A stretch of 54,136 nucleotides of DNA, taken from positions 1-54,136 of the forward strand of contig BJGV01000008.1 of the NCBI GenBank assembly GCA_014190895.1, read 5' to 3'. Origin of the DNA: Nitrosomonadaceae bacterium (GTDB taxonomy: Bacteria; Pseudomonadota; Gammaproteobacteria; Burkholderiales; Nitrosomonadaceae). The position numbers and the translations under genes were made by a program. The notes under the pieces are model-generated. The model ran no database searches. It was not told the origin of the DNA and saw only the letters and a list, made by a program, of their open reading frames with translations. Below, in pieces: positions 14,201 through 42,917 of this stretch (the first letter of the stretch is position 1; every line of letters begins with the position of its first letter).

Positions 14201-15457
14201 TCAAATCATGCGTTCGACTATCGCCTGACCAAATGCAGAACAAGATACTTCTTTTACTCCAGACATCTGTCGAGCAAAGTCGTAAGTCACAATCTTATCC
14301 TGAATAGTTTTCTCCATTGCATGAATGATTAAGTTTGCTGCCTCAGTCCATTGCATATGTCGCAACATCATCTCTGCTGATAAGATAATAGATCCAGGAT
14401 TAACCTGATTCTTGCCGGCATACTTTGGTGCCGTACCGTGAGTCGCCTCGAACATTGCAGTTGAATCACTAAGATTGGCACCTGGAGCTATACCAATACC
14501 GCCCACTTGAGCCGCTAAAGCATCGGAAATATAATCCCCATTCAAATTTAATGTGGCGATCACATCATATTCTTCTGGACGCAGAAGAATTTGTTGCAGA
14601 AAAGCATCTGCAATCATATCTTTTATGATAATTCCACCGTTTTTTTTCGGCAATTTCATCCATGGCCCTGCATCAAGTAACTCAGCATCAAATTCTTTTA
14701 CTGATAATGCGTAACCCCAATTCTTAAAGGCTCCCTCAGTAAATTTCATAATATTACCCTTATGTACTAAGGTAACTGATTTTCTTCCATTATCTATCGC
14801 ATATTGAATTGCTTTACGCACTAATCGCTCGGTACCGTCTCTCGATACCGGTTTAATGCCAATTCCAGATGTTTGTGGGAAGCGTATTTTTTTGACGCCC
14901 ATGTCGTTTATCAAATAATCAATTATCTTTATTGCCTCTTTTGACTCGGCTTCCCATTCTATTCCGGCGTAAATATCTTCAGAATTTTCACGGAAAATAA
15001 CCATATCCGTTTTTTCAGGATTCTTTAGCGGACTAGGCACGCCCGAGAAATAACGTATCGGCCTAAGGCATATGTATAAATCTAATTCTTGACGTAACGC
15101 AACATTAATTGAACGAATGCCCCCGCCTATGGGTGTTGTCAATGGGCCTTTAATAGAGATCACATACTCTTTCGCAGCTTCCAATGTTTCATTTGGCAAC
15201 CATAAATCCTTGCCGTATACTTTTGTAGCTTTCTCACCAGCATAAATTTCCATCCAATAAATTTTTCGCTTATTGCCGTAGGCTTTACTTACAGAAAAAT
15301 CTACAACTCTTTGCATCACTGGAGTGATATCCACACCAATGCCATCACCCGTAATATACGGAATAATTGGATAATCTGGCACACTCAAAGATGAATCCTT
15401 GTTAACAATAATTTTTTCGCCCTCAAACGGTATCTTAATGTGTTGATACTTCTGCAT
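14201..15457 (-). CDS. icd: NADP-dependent isocitrate dehydrogenase
   Basis: Oxidative decarboxylation of isocitrate to 2-oxoglutarate in the TCA cycle, 418 residues, the usual length of the E. coli-type NADP enzyme. Conserved segments are [12 protein letters not shown] near residue 36, the substrate loop around residue 105 ([20 protein letters not shown], which includes the serine that is phosphorylated in enteric enzymes), [14 protein letters not shown] near residue 150, [19 protein letters not shown] with the Mg-binding aspartates, and [16 protein letters not shown] near residue 339. GGAG precedes the ATG by eight bases. It converges with cspA across the palindromic terminator. Confidence 0.96.
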
Positions 15458-15697
15458 AAAGTCTCCAAGAGTATTGTTAGTATTTTTAGATCAGAACACC
15501 ATGTTGCAATATTCTACCCGTGTTTTAGTAGAAAACAGAGATACCTCTCAATGATGGAGGCGTCCCAATTTTGAATCAACCTCCAGGCTGATGAAGAATA
15601 GTGTCTTTTAACTGACAACGAAGCATGTTAAAATTTATACTAATTCCTTTCTATATTTTTATGTCTACTTCTAGAGGAACGCACGACATGAAAACCA

Positions 15698-16065
15698 ATG
15701 ATTACTGTTGCCACAGTTATTGAGCGAAATAAAAAATCTTCATTGGCGAGGGATGCGGAACTACTGACAACGTTCAACTTAATCGGCCTATTAAGCACTT
15801 AGAACCCGATGAGTCCATTCTTCATAATGCCACTTTAATGAGAATTTTCTGACAGTACTCTCATATTAATGACACCACTTACCTACATTTTTCCTATTCC
15901 GGTAACGCCACTCACCATATCTCCAAACATATATTAGATGAAGCTATAATATATGTAACATGACTTGAAATAAATCAAATTCATGAGCGCGTTCATCAGC
16001 ATCGCAGTTCCTTAGTTATGAGATGTACAGAAAATTATTTGGTTAATAAATATTATTTCTCATAA
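15698..16065 (+). pseudogene. nudJ: Decayed NudJ-like Nudix hydrolase (phosphatase) gene
   Basis: The remnant starts MITVATVIERN (frame at 15698), loses one base in the A-run at 15731-15736, and continues in a second frame from 15736: IFIGEGCGTTDNVQLNRPIK, then HLEPDESIL. About 20 residues carrying the Nudix box helix (RExxEE) are missing. The frame continues through two in-frame TGA codons (15850 and 15961; the second replaces an expected Trp), with NDTTYLHFSYSG, LDEAIIYVT, then [16 protein letters not shown], and ends at TAA 16063-16065. These blocks match the NudJ-type protein encoded directly upstream of mnmA in betaproteobacteria. It cannot give an active enzyme. The 240 bases before it, after icd, hold nothing I recognise. 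Confidence 0.8.
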
Positions 16066-16090
16066 ACCTTTACTCATTGCAATTAGACTA

Positions 16091-17170
16091 ATGATCAAAA
16101 AACGTGTTGTAGTGGGCATATCTGGCGGAGTTGACTCGTCTGTGGCGGCGCTAATTCTTAAACAACAGGGCTACGATGTAATTGGTTTGTTTATGAAAAA
16201 TTGGGAGGACGAAGATACTACAGAGTACTGTTCATCGCGACAAGATTTTATCGATGCTGCGTCGGCAACTGATATCATTAACATTCCTTTAGAAATAGTA
16301 AATTTTTCTACTGAATATAAAGAACGAGTATTTGGTCACTTTCTTGCCAAGTACAGAGCAGGTCAGACTCCAAACCCAGATATACTGTGTAATTCTGAGA
16401 TCAAGTTTAAAGCATTTCTAGATTATGCTGTTACTCTTGGCGCCGATTATATTGCCACCGGTCACTATGCCAAAATACGAGAAGTGGGTCGTACTTTTCA
16501 ATTACTAAAAGGTGAGGATGGCAACAAAGACCAGAGTTATTTTCTTTATCGTCTTAATCAAAAACAATTAGCAAAAACACTATTCCCTATAGGTCATCTC
16601 TATAAAAGCGAAGTACGCAGAATTGCTCAGGACTTTAAATTATCTAATTTTGCCAAGAAGGATAGTACAGGCATCTGTTTTATTGGTGAGCGTCCATTTC
16701 GGGATTTTCTTGGCCGTTATCTGCCACATAACCCAGGGGAGATAAAAACTCTGGAGGGTATGGTGATTGGAGAGCATGCCGGTCTGATGTATCACACAAT
16801 TGGTCAACGACAAGGATTAAGAATTGGTGGAACCAAGGGGGGAAATGATGAGCCATGGTATGTGTCAGGTAAGGACATAAAACATAATATTTTAACTGTA
16901 GTACAGGGTCATAATCACCCAAAATTATTCCAACAAACTATTACCGCCACTGATTTAACATGGATAAACGGTGAAGAACCTAAACAACAATGGGTTTATA
17001 CTGCTAAAATCCGTTACCGTCAACCCGATACGCCCTGTTCTATTACAGATATTAAGAATGGGAAGTGTAGTATTGAATTTGCTCAACCGCAATGGGCGAT
17101 AGCGCCAGGACAATCAGTGGTGATCTACGAAAGCAAGGTCTGTTTAGGTGGAGGGGAGATTGAAAGTTAA
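16091..17170 (+). CDS. mnmA: tRNA-specific 2-thiouridylase MnmA
   Basis: Thiolates uridine 34 of tRNA-Lys, -Glu and -Gln, using sulfur relayed from IscS through the Tus proteins. The 359-residue protein starts with the PP-loop ATP site [15 protein letters not shown]. The catalytic cysteine pair is in [12 protein letters not shown] (about C101) and [10 protein letters not shown] (about C196). TGHYAKI near residue 125 and a C-terminal beta-barrel follow ([26 protein letters not shown]). It starts 25 bases after the nudJ remnant, whose loss has left mnmA without an obvious ribosome binding site. Confidence 0.97.
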
Positions 17171-17259
17171 AGTGTAAAGAATTTAAAACATATCGATCTT
17201 TGATCACCTGACATACGTTTCAATAGTCTACGGACCTATGCTAGAATCAGACAATATAA

Positions 17260-18672
<1,413 letters not shown>

Positions 18673-22678: not shown

Positions 22679-23239
22679 TTACCAGTCACCGCGCAATAAC
22701 TTCTCGAGCCAAAATATCCCTGATATGGTCTTAGTATCCGTAATTTTTCCTGTTCTAATCCACTCTAAAGATTTTTTTAATGTTAATACAAAGGTCTCCA
22801 GATTCTCCCCATCATCAAGACATGCGCCCTTAAAAGTAAGTTCTTTCGCTAGGTAATACACTAATTTCTCGTTAGAGTAACTAATACATGGGTGCAAAGT
22901 AGCAAGATAAAACCAATTCGCTGCTATATAACCTGTTTCTTCTAATAATTCACGTTGTGCGCATAACAGCGGATCCTCATTAGGATTAATTTTACCCGCG
23001 GGTAGTTCGTAAAAATCCTGACTTAATGGATAACGGTATTGGCGCTCTAATACTAAATCGCCATTTTCTAACAGAGGAATAATCACTACTCCGCCAGGAT
23101 GGGCAACATACTCTCTCAATGCTAATTTACCATCAGGTAATTTAACCTGATCTAGATACACTTTTAATAAACGGCCCTCAAATGCAAGTTGGCTACTGAT
23201 CTGTTCTTCTCTAAAATCAGAGGATGATGATTTGAGCAT
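22679..23239 (-). CDS. Nudix hydrolase, ADP-ribose pyrophosphatase type
   Basis: A 186-residue Nudix enzyme. The Nudix box is complete: G82, E88, R96-E97, E100-E101 and G103 in the pattern GX5EX7REUXEEXGU. Upstream YELPAGK and the preceding VVIIPLLENGDLVLERQYRY are typical of the NudF/ADP-ribose pyrophosphatase group, which splits ADP-ribose into AMP and ribose-5-phosphate. The Pro downstream of the box in LHPCISYSNEKLVYYLAK also fits that group. The substrate is inferred from these features only. It converges with dnaJ and is divergent from the TIR-like gene, sharing a 252-base intergenic region with it. Confidence 0.88.
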   Translation of the reverse strand: MLKSSSSDFREEQISSQLAFEGRLLKVYLDQVKLPDGKLALREYVAHPGGVVIIPLLENGDLVLERQYRYPLSQDFYELPAGKINPNEDPLLCAQRELLEETGYIAANWFYLATLHPCISYSNEKLVYYLAKELTFKGACLDDGENLETFVLTLKKSLEWIRTGKITDTKTISGIFWLEKLLRGDW

Positions 23240-23491: not shown

Positions 23492-23878
23492 ATGGCCCCA
23501 ACAAATCAAATCTTCATCAGCTTTGCACTCAAAGATATTAATTTTCGTGATCTACTCGTCGAACAATTGAGTAACAAAGAAACGTTATACTCGTTTGTAG
23601 ACATGCCTGTAAAACAATCCTGGGAAACAGTTTGGAAAGAAGATTGTAGATCGAAAATTAAAAAATGCGACGGTGTAATTGCCCTAATTACAAAGAATAT
23701 AATCAGAGCAGATGGCCAGCTTTGGGAATTAAATTGTGCCTATGATGACAGAGTACCCGTACTCTTACTTTATGGGGAATCTGAAAAGCTACCGAAAAAA
23801 CTCCCTCCGCCTGTGAGTGACAGAGAGATTTTGTTATGGACTTGGCCTAACATTGAAACGTTTCTTAATAGGCTATAG
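23492..23878 (+). CDS. TIR-like domain protein (ThsB / DUF1863 type), stand-alone
   Basis: A 128-residue protein consisting of one TIR-like (MTH538/DUF1863, Thoeris ThsB-type) domain. Recognisable elements are the first strand IFISFALKD (residues 7-15), the loop FVDMPVKQSWETVWKEDC (35-52), the strand CDGVIALITKN (59-69), and GQLWELNCA (75-83) with the acidic residue E79 at the place of the catalytic Glu of TIR NADases, then VPVLLLYG. There is no signal peptide or membrane segment. Members of this family serve as sensors of phage infection that make NAD-derived signals for ThsA, but no ThsA or other effector is seen here. It has its own promoter and very strong ribosome binding site, and stands back to back with an ADP-ribose-type Nudix gene. 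Fold assignment is fairly sure; function is open. Confidence 0.8.
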   Translation: MAPTNQIFISFALKDINFRDLLVEQLSNKETLYSFVDMPVKQSWETVWKEDCRSKIKKCDGVIALITKNIIRADGQLWELNCAYDDRVPVLLLYGESEKLPKKLPPPVSDREILLWTWPNIETFLNRL

Positions 23879-24492
23879 AGAAAATAGAGTCAACTAAGGA
23901 AGTAGAAAATACGAAGATTCTTGGTTGGTAGGATGTGGGTCATTCAAGGTCTTCTTCCTTACTCTCTTTTTTTCTCCAGTTCTCTCATCTGTAGCATTTT
24001 GAATCCACTCACTTAAAATCATCTATCACAAGTGTTTGTCATTTATTTAATACGGGTGAATTTTGAAGTGCGTCAATTTGTCACATTACAGAATCTCCGA
24101 ATTAGCGGTAGTCTACCTCTTCATCTCCACTTTATTTTATGATGATGCCATCGATTGATGTAGTTTAGAGATCATTACTTACATTACACTATCCAGTAAA
24201 TTTATATAACACTAGTTACAGTATAATGTTATGTCTATCATTATGAACCCTAATCTCATTTATATAGAAGATATCGATTATGGCTATTAATTATGTCAAA
24301 GAGCTTGGTATCATATGCACATTAAATTAAATACTCAACATATTATCGATTGCTCTCCGTTACTTGGATTTTTCTAAACATTTGATATATGCCTAATTAA
24401 GTTGAACAAAGATACCTTCCTGCATTAATTTCACTCAATCTGAAATTTAGATTCCTTTTATCAATTAGAAATAAACTTAAATACACCCTTTA
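23879..24492. other. 614-base gene-free stretch between the TIR-like gene and the RND efflux operon
   Basis: No open frame with a ribosome binding site is present, and no RNA gene is recognised. A 6-base inverted repeat, ATAACA (24206-24211) and TGTTAT (24227-24232), overlaps a TATAAT (24222-24227) and resembles an operator over a promoter. It is followed by a 19-codon frame beginning at 24232, interrupted by a stop and continuing for about 24 codons, which may be decayed coding sequence. A promoter for the efflux genes (for example TTGAAC near 24400) could lie in the right half. Confidence 0.4.
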
Positions 24493-25737
24493 ATGAAAGA
24501 TATTTCTCAAACACCACCCGCCCCATCTGCCAAGCGAAGCATGGGAATCAAGATGATTGGAATCCTGCTCGCCTCTCTAATTATGCTGACCTTAATCTGG
24601 CGTAGCCAAAATACTGGGACCAATACAAAGAATCCGGAGATCGGGGCAATCCAGGTGCTGAGTACAGTGGTCTCGCAAAATGATGTGTTAGTCAAACTTT
24701 CGGCTAATGGTACCGTGTCTGCTCAGCAAACGGTTGATGTTCGTCCTCAGATTAGCGCTACGATGAAGATGGTGCATATCAGAGAAGGGCAATTCGTAAA
24801 TAAGGGTGACAAGTTATTTACTCTTGATGCGCGTACTGAAAACGCTAATCTGAATAAAGCAGAAGCGCAATTAGTAAAATCTCATGCGGATTTATTAAAT
24901 GCAGAGCGCAATCTCAAGCGCCAACACGAACTATTCCAACAGAAATTTATTTCGCAATCCGCACTTGATATAGCGCAAAATCAAGTGGATGGGTTGCGGG
25001 GTCAATTTGGATTTGATAAAGCTACTGTTCAAGCGAATCGGGTAATGCAAAGTTTCAGCGAGATCTACGCACCGATCTCCGGACGTACCGGTGTAATTCC
25101 GGTATATCCAGGCAGTCTAGTACAGCCAAACAGCGCTGTTATAGGTAGTCTAATACAGCCAAGTAGCGCTATTCTTGTAAGTATTACACAAATTGATCCA
25201 ATTAATATTAGTTTCACATTACCGGAACGTGAACTTGCAACTTTACAGCAAGCATTTACTAAGGGTGAGATATCTGTCAGCGCAGAACTAGATCTAATAG
25301 GGGGAAAAACTCAATATGGAAAATTATTATTCATTGATAATACGATTGACGTAGCAAGCGGGAGTATTCGTCTTAAAGCTGAATTCCCAAATGCGGAAAG
25401 GCATCTATGGCCTGGTATGTTTGTTACGGTAACACTTGCACCTCGTAAATTAAAAGACGCCATTACCGTACCCGTGCAGGCAGTACAAACTGGTCCAGAG
25501 AGTAAATTTCTTTACATAATAGAAGAAAATAACAAGGTAAGGATTCTGCCAATCAGTGTGCGCCTAATTCAAGATAAGCTCGCTATAATAGAGGGGGCAA
25601 AACCAGGCATACGAGTTGTTCTGGAAGGTGCACAGAATCTCAGGCCAGGTAGCATAGTGACAGAAACAGGAAATAGCAAAAATGCTAACGAATCTTTGAT
25701 TCAGAGTGTCTCTAACGCAAGTAATAAGACGAACTAG
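24493..25737 (+). CDS. RND efflux system periplasmic adaptor subunit (membrane fusion protein)
   Basis: Adaptor of 414 residues that links an inner-membrane RND pump to an outer-membrane channel. A signal anchor or membrane segment covers about residues 18-37. The lipoyl halves are at about 70-105 (VRPQISATMKMVHIREGQFV) and 190-235 (IYAPISGRTGVIPVYPGSLV). A coiled-coil hairpin lies between them (about 112-170), followed by beta-barrel and membrane-proximal domains. The MdtA/AcrA type is clear; the exporter's substrate is not. Residues 207-228 are an 11-residue tandem repeat absent from the usual family pattern. Its TAG stop overlaps the GTG start of the pump gene by one base. No good ribosome binding site precedes the ATG. 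Confidence 0.92.
   Translation: MKDISQTPPAPSAKRSMGIKMIGILLASLIMLTLIWRSQNTGTNTKNPEIGAIQVLSTVVSQNDVLVKLSANGTVSAQQTVDVRPQISATMKMVHIREGQFVNKGDKLFTLDARTENANLNKAEAQLVKSHADLLNAERNLKRQHELFQQKFISQSALDIAQNQVDGLRGQFGFDKATVQANRVMQSFSEIYAPISGRTGVIPVYPGSLVQPNSAVIGSLIQPSSAILVSITQIDPINISFTLPERELATLQQAFTKGEISVSAELDLIGGKTQYGKLLFIDNTIDVASGSIRLKAEFPNAERHLWPGMFVTVTLAPRKLKDAITVPVQAVQTGPESKFLYIIEENNKVRILPISVRLIQDKLAIIEGAKPGIRVVLEGAQNLRPGSIVTETGNSKNANESLIQSVSNASNKTN
25111..25176 (+). repeat. Diverged 33-base tandem duplication inside the efflux adaptor gene
   Basis: Codons 207-217 (GSLVQPNSAVI) and 218-228 (GSLIQPSSAIL) are consecutive copies, at 25111-25143 and 25144-25176. The DNA copies differ at several bases, so the duplication is not very recent, and the reading frame is kept. 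Confidence 0.85.
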
Positions 25738-42311: not shown

Positions 42312-42917
42312 TTAAATATTTTTTAAACGAGATCTTACAGAAATCCTGTTATCTAGGTCATCTAAACGTTGCTCTAGTCTCTCCGTATCAACCTGGAATG
42401 CATCTATTTCCTCTTTGAACTGAAGCACATGAACAAATTTGGTCAATAATTCCGTCTCTTCCAACCAGTATTCTGTTGCTGATTGCTGTAGATTATGAAT
42501 CGTTTCATTATGCCACCAAGTAAATTTTTCGCTCATGCGAATTGCATAATTAGTAAGAATATCACCCACAATCCAGACAAAACTCTTCTCTGCATTCCAG
42601 TATAAATTTTTACTTATATTAATAAACTCTTCAGCAAAAACGTTATCTCCTGAAATATTTATCGTACGAAAAAAATTCTTATCGTGGACAAACAAACGTG
42701 GCAAAAAACTAGGTGTCAGGGTAACGATAGCATCTGCAAGAATGTCATCTTTTATAAATAACAAATCACCATCAGCCTGTACAGTCAAGAAAATGTCTGG
42801 AAAAAATGGGGTGCATAAGCGCATAGTCTTACCAGAGAATGCTTGGAGTCTTTTGCACACCGAATTTTCTTTGTGCAATAAGTGATTAAGTTGATTTATT
42901 TTATCGATGGCTAACAT
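42312..42917 (-). CDS. ubiJ: Ubiquinone biosynthesis accessory factor UbiJ
   Basis: A 201-residue accessory protein of the Ubi metabolon with an SCP2 lipid-binding domain over about residues 15-115 (LQAFSGKTMRLC, LTPSFLPRLF, INISGDNVFAEEF). A helical C terminus (EEIDAFQVDTERLEQRLDDL) follows. It is thought to bind the hydrophobic polyprenyl intermediates. It directly precedes ubiB. In many proteobacteria ubiE comes first (ubiE-ubiJ-ubiB); here ubiE is absent and hisD lies upstream instead. Confidence 0.88.
   Translation of the reverse strand: MLAIDKINQLNHLLHKENSVCKRLQAFSGKTMRLCTPFFPDIFLTVQADGDLLFIKDDILADAIVTLTPSFLPRLFVHDKNFFRTINISGDNVFAEEFINISKNLYWNAEKSFVWIVGDILTNYAIRMSEKFTWWHNETIHNLQQSATEYWLEETELLTKFVHVLQFKEEIDAFQVDTERLEQRLDDLDNRISVRSRLKNI

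Follow-up and report, generated by a model that had tools for sequence, protein, structure and literature searches.

In the stretch of DNA analysed here (the window, 54,136 nucleotides, spanning positions 1-54,136 on contig 8 of its genome), the copy of nudJ that stands before mnmA is almost certainly a true pseudogene, lost in the lineage that led to this genome and kept as a gene in the six sampled genomes of the same genus. The pseudogene occupies 15683..16065 of the forward strand, from the ancestral start position to an early TAA, with homology trailing to about 16077. Similarity over the length of NudJ and a position flanked by icd and mnmA, which relatives share, identify the remnant as a NudJ orthologue by descent, while the uninterrupted frame with a start codon and the complete Nudix box that mark a functional NudJ are both missing from it. 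In addition, the combination that defines a pseudogene was found, namely disabling lesions, relaxed constraint and intact orthologues in relatives.

Homology, position and lesions of the nudJ remnant

A translated search of the whole window with NudJ proteins (tblastn), a check akin to the BLASTX comparison proposed in the sequence-only reading of this DNA, gave matches from 15760 or 15781 to 16050-16077 for the eight queries listed of 67 run (E 2.9e-20 to 2.4e-15), the best of these eight being the NudJ of the same-genus genome G003. When the broken frame was crossed by frameshift-aware alignment, 15692-16056 scored 196 against this same protein, compared with a mean of 30 and a maximum of 42 for 40 mononucleotide shuffles of 15458-16090. 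Aligned in this way with the NudJ proteins of five relatives, the remnant had 44-53 identical residues among 135-137 aligned positions, gaps counted. No open reading frame of at least 60 aa (ATG, GTG or TTG start) was present inside 15458-16090 on either strand. The claim that a NudJ pseudogene precedes mnmA was borne out by the tblastn matches, the alignment across the broken frame, the lesions and the relaxed constraint.

Since no NCBIfam family exceeded its curated cut-off with the NudJ proteins of two relatives, the name NudJ is based on a phmmer match to a PDB NudJ together with synteny. The intact NudJ of G004 matched E. coli NudJ (YmfB; PDB 3dku, also 3shd, 4nfw and 4nfx) over query residues 3-145 with a phmmer E of 3.9e-24; by contrast, the copy in the window is interrupted and is missing the catalytic half of its Nudix box. 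The best PDB match of a relative's intact NudJ was 2b0v, a 'NUDIX hydrolase' that we take to come from Nitrosomonas europaea (E 1.7e-57, residues 1-148), and this protein is intact whereas the window copy is a pseudogene.

Both neighbours of the remnant are intact. Downstream lies mnmA (16091..17170, forward strand), as we named it, presumably encoding tRNA 2-thiouridylase, with 69-76% identity to the MnmA of matched family genomes, and upstream, in divergent orientation, lies a gene that we take from its sequence to be icd, for isocitrate dehydrogenase (14201..15457, reverse strand), matched at 82-83% identity by ORFs in four relatives. In relatives, icd, nudJ and mnmA follow each other in the same order; in the six same-genus genomes 3 or 4 bases separate the nudJ stop from the mnmA start downstream of it, and the gap is 4 nt at 23 of 36 listed family loci. 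The description of nudJ as the usual upstream partner of mnmA holds within the family, where the two genes adjoin in 31 of the 33 other genomes that have both (they are apart in G013 and G016), but the picture outside it is mixed, as no NudJ was found by pattern within up to 800 bases before mnmA (fewer at contig ends) in 41 of 80 named loci. In E. coli, too, nudJ presumably adjoins mnmA. The available excerpt of a study places E. coli nudJ near purB, at about 1,800 bp (PMC12359138).

A DNA alignment with the six same-genus genomes, each of which encodes an intact NudJ of 148 aa, revealed a total of seven lesions on the forward strand of the window copy: loss of the start, four stops (three TGA and one TAA), one frameshift and one 45-nt deletion. 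The ancestral start codon position (15683..15685), the column of ATG in all six genomes, now reads ACG, and it is followed by an in-frame TGA (15689..15691) at the codon for Trp3, which is a Trp codon in 6/6 relatives. A frameshift of net +2 nt (equivalent to -1 modulo 3) was placed by MAFFT and by frameshift-aware alignment in the interval of about 15730..15760, within which its exact place is ambiguous. The junction of the 45-nt in-frame deletion lies at 15834..15835, a placement uncertain by a few bases. Two further in-frame TGA codons (15850..15852 and 15961..15963) were present in both the DNA and the frameshift-aware alignments, the second of them where the aligned relatives have a Trp codon, and the early TAA (16063..16065) stands seven codons ahead of the relatives' stop in the DNA alignment. 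The Nudix box has the motif GX5EX7REUXEEXGU; the deletion takes out its REU-EE half, including the catalytic glutamates, and in the remnant the RETLEETGY part is gone and the leading G replaced.

Among the lesions named in the sequence-only reading, the Nudix-box deletion was recovered in the alignments with relatives, and the two internal TGA codons (15850 and 15961) are both real, but the lost start, the TGA at 15689 and the TAA had been overlooked. The proposed N terminus, 'MITVATV', had to be abandoned, as its ATG at 15698 falls on the codon for Asn5. A one-base loss in the A-run at 15731-15736 is one possible placement of the shift, which then needs one extra codon, but both MAFFT and the frameshift-aware alignment set the shift further on.

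Relaxed constraint and alternative explanations

Constraint was compared at sites that are invariant in the six same-genus relatives, and each count left out the columns in which the tested row has a gap. The remnant keeps 66/88 of these sites at codon position 1 (0.75), 72/103 at position 2 (0.70) and 21/36 at position 3 (0.58), while mnmA of the same genome keeps 242/270, 289/305 and 48/83, respectively, and six intact NudJ genes from outside the genus keep 75-90/99, 99-111/115-116 and 14-24/45. At position 2 the five controls from other family members keep 103-111/116 and the Methylovorus NudJ (L056) 99/115. At position 1 the most distant intact control keeps 75/99 (0.76) and the others 80-90/99, so that the remnant is barely lower than the former and the case for relaxed constraint rests on position 2. 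Our analysis demonstrated that protein-level constraint on the remnant is largely relaxed, with third positions kept as in mnmA. The second position is still kept above the third (0.70 vs 0.58), which suggests that selection still acted on nudJ along part of the branch.

The remnant might instead have been retained because it serves mnmA as regulatory leader, promoter or small RNA, an explanation that we consider unlikely. It would fit the loss of a close upstream cistron of mnmA, and the best promoter-like site (15612-15641, 10 of 12) precedes the remnant, which may therefore be transcribed and may still form part of the mnmA transcript leader. On the other hand, the window has no Rfam match at gathering scores, the four promoter-like sites compare with 2.7 (sd 1.6) in shuffles, terminator-like sites were not found, and the residual similarity to nudJ is what ancestry alone predicts. 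Two specific candidates were rejected on these grounds, a known structured RNA replacing nudJ and a promoter or terminator within the remnant itself, where nothing exceeded chance. The pseudogene probably persists just because its deletion has yet to happen.

It is very improbable that the gene is intact and the lesions are artefacts of sequencing or assembly. The draft genome is split into 25 contigs, and single lesions could be assembly errors, but the start loss, four stops, frameshift and 45-nt deletion all fall in one gene, the neighbouring genes have full-length homologues in relatives, and 31/103 invariant second positions are changed, compared with 16/305 in mnmA. The copy has decayed and does not owe its state to a few sequencing errors. 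That the gene functions under a changed code with TGA read as Trp is scarcely conceivable: two of the three TGA codons (15689 and 15961) do stand at Trp codons of relatives, but TGA ends 6 of 37 window genes (hand-picked from the ORF list, with some ORFs left out), which hold 112 TGG codons, the frameshift, start loss, TAA and Nudix-box deletion stay under any code, and the deletion of the catalytic glutamates speaks against a working enzyme. Having lost its start and its catalytic glutamates, and with four stops and one shift in its frame, the nudJ pseudogene would give no NudJ product.

NudJ in relatives and gene loss in the genome

A NudJ match at E 1e-10 or better was found in 117 of 125 family genomes, the present one included. 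This genome has the only match interrupted by stops; the matches in 116 of the other 124 are free of them. Seven of the eight family genomes without a NudJ match are at most 83% complete and the eighth, G102, is 95% complete. Within the genus, 6/7 other genomes have NudJ without stops, and in the seventh (G001, 72% complete) neither NudJ nor MnmA was matched. Absence of NudJ recurs in the order outside the family, where among 24 genomes four (G038, G045, G052 and G057) had no NudJ match at E 0.001 and another, G054, had a weak match only (7e-4).

A NudJ protein search of the whole genome found no other NudJ copy; apart from the wreck it gave one weak match (E 8.8e-4), to a Nudix gene at window positions 22868-23014 that was also weakly matched in the tblastn of NudJ proteins. 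A functional NudJ copy that had moved elsewhere was rejected on this result. The genome contains five intact Nudix genes, which from their sequences look like other types than NudJ.

The draft genome comprises 1,321,229 bases and is rated 99.97% complete. The best named matches of its MnmA are Nitrosomonas records (70-74%), from which, together with the MnmA identities within the family, we take the family to be Nitrosomonadaceae. In the MnmA tree it has an end branch of 0.55, compared with a median of 0.074, and stands beside Nitrosomonas rows and not with its assigned genus, at a fork with 93/91 support that is not starred (one gene). Since this tree of a single gene with a long branch sets the genome apart from its assigned genus, the branch that carries the nudJ loss is uncertain.

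The neighbourhood was compared with eight stretches (up to 20 kb each) from five same-genus genomes (G002-G006), which hardly cover the window outside 858-36,334. Most of the larger ORFs between these positions have homologues in the stretches, largely in the same order, and of the relatives' ORFs only nudJ, in five stretches, matches the window outside homologous ORFs at a tblastn E of 1e-6. At E 1e-5, no window match was found for several genes of the relatives, among them the following (here and below, the names other than mnmA were given by us from sequences): a presumed glutathione-S-transferase-like gene between mnmA and the presumed purB (window 17170-17272), a 342-aa gene beside the presumed hemD, and a presumed dicarboxylate-transporter-like gene after the presumed TIR-like gene. 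About 6 kb of the relatives' DNA that includes the transporter-like gene has no window match, at 23878-24493. The TIR-domain-like small protein (23492-23878) reached 27.4 bits for PF13676, just under the 28-bit cut-off, and has homologues in four same-genus genomes (58-74% identity). ORFs 391-822 and 42312-42917 have no Pfam match, and the former, which overlaps an opposite-strand frame matching a relative's ORF, is probably spurious.

The relatives may have gained the genes missing from the window; if these genes were lost here, clean deletion outnumbers decay. The idea of ongoing loss in a tight genome finds partial support: nudJ was the sole wreck found against the eight stretches, and several genes carried there by relatives are unmatched in the window. 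Single-gene pseudogenes occur in shrinking bacterial genomes, and the present case resembles them in being one recognisable wreck amid genes whose order is otherwise conserved.

No match was found in this 99.97%-complete genome to AmoA (PF02461), AmoB (PF04744) or the HAO multihaem family (PF13447). All three families are present in the same-genus genomes G001 and G006, some of them in G002, G003 and G005, and none in G004 (87% complete) and G007 (79% complete). Multi-copy operons such as amo/hao are often lost from binned drafts, and their absence is for this reason just suggestive. The small genome, the long branch and the lack of an Amo/HAO match are more interesting than the pseudogene itself. 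A wider scenario, in which nudJ decayed in a shrinking lineage of the Nitrosomonas family that has lost ammonia oxidation and is maybe host-dependent, and in which NudJ loss could shift nucleotide pools and the mutation spectrum, is speculative and in our view rather doubtful. Our literature search found no paper joining nudJ, pseudogene and mnmA, and, judged by title and the start of the abstract, nothing fitting on reduced or endosymbiotic Nitrosomonadaceae among the matches listed.

Consequences of nudJ loss

According to the available excerpt of the E. coli study, NudJ hydrolyses HMP-PP and TPP in vitro as well as DMAPP and nucleoside di- and triphosphates, with GDP preferred (PMC12359138), and GDP also appears as a NudJ substrate in an excerpt of a second paper (PMC5158307). 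The suggestion that the loss may matter for thiamin found no support as a deficit: the genome has the ThiC, ThiD and ThiE families (PF01964, PF08543 and PF02581), HMP-PP can for this reason probably be made in this organism, and NudJ breaks down HMP-PP and TPP instead of producing them, so that nudJ loss is expected to spare thiamin synthesis. By analogy with E. coli, where in the excerpted text deletion of nudJ can lower the mutation rate 6-fold with a spectrum biased towards A to C (PMC12359138), loss of nudJ might here alter nucleotide pools or the rate of mutation.

We infer that NudJ, as an enzyme that clears metabolites and makes none, became dispensable in a fast-evolving lineage with a small (1.32 Mb) genome. 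The loss as such is that of an ordinary, lineage-specific pseudogene, with nothing unusual about it. Since nudJ deletion can lower the mutation rate and shift its spectrum in E. coli (PMC12359138, excerpt), natural losses of nudJ are candidates for comparative tests of this effect. In this organism the nudJ remnant records a single step in the loss of genes from a small genome and, set against the stop-free matches in 116 of 124 other family genomes, suggests that NudJ is dispensable in this lineage.
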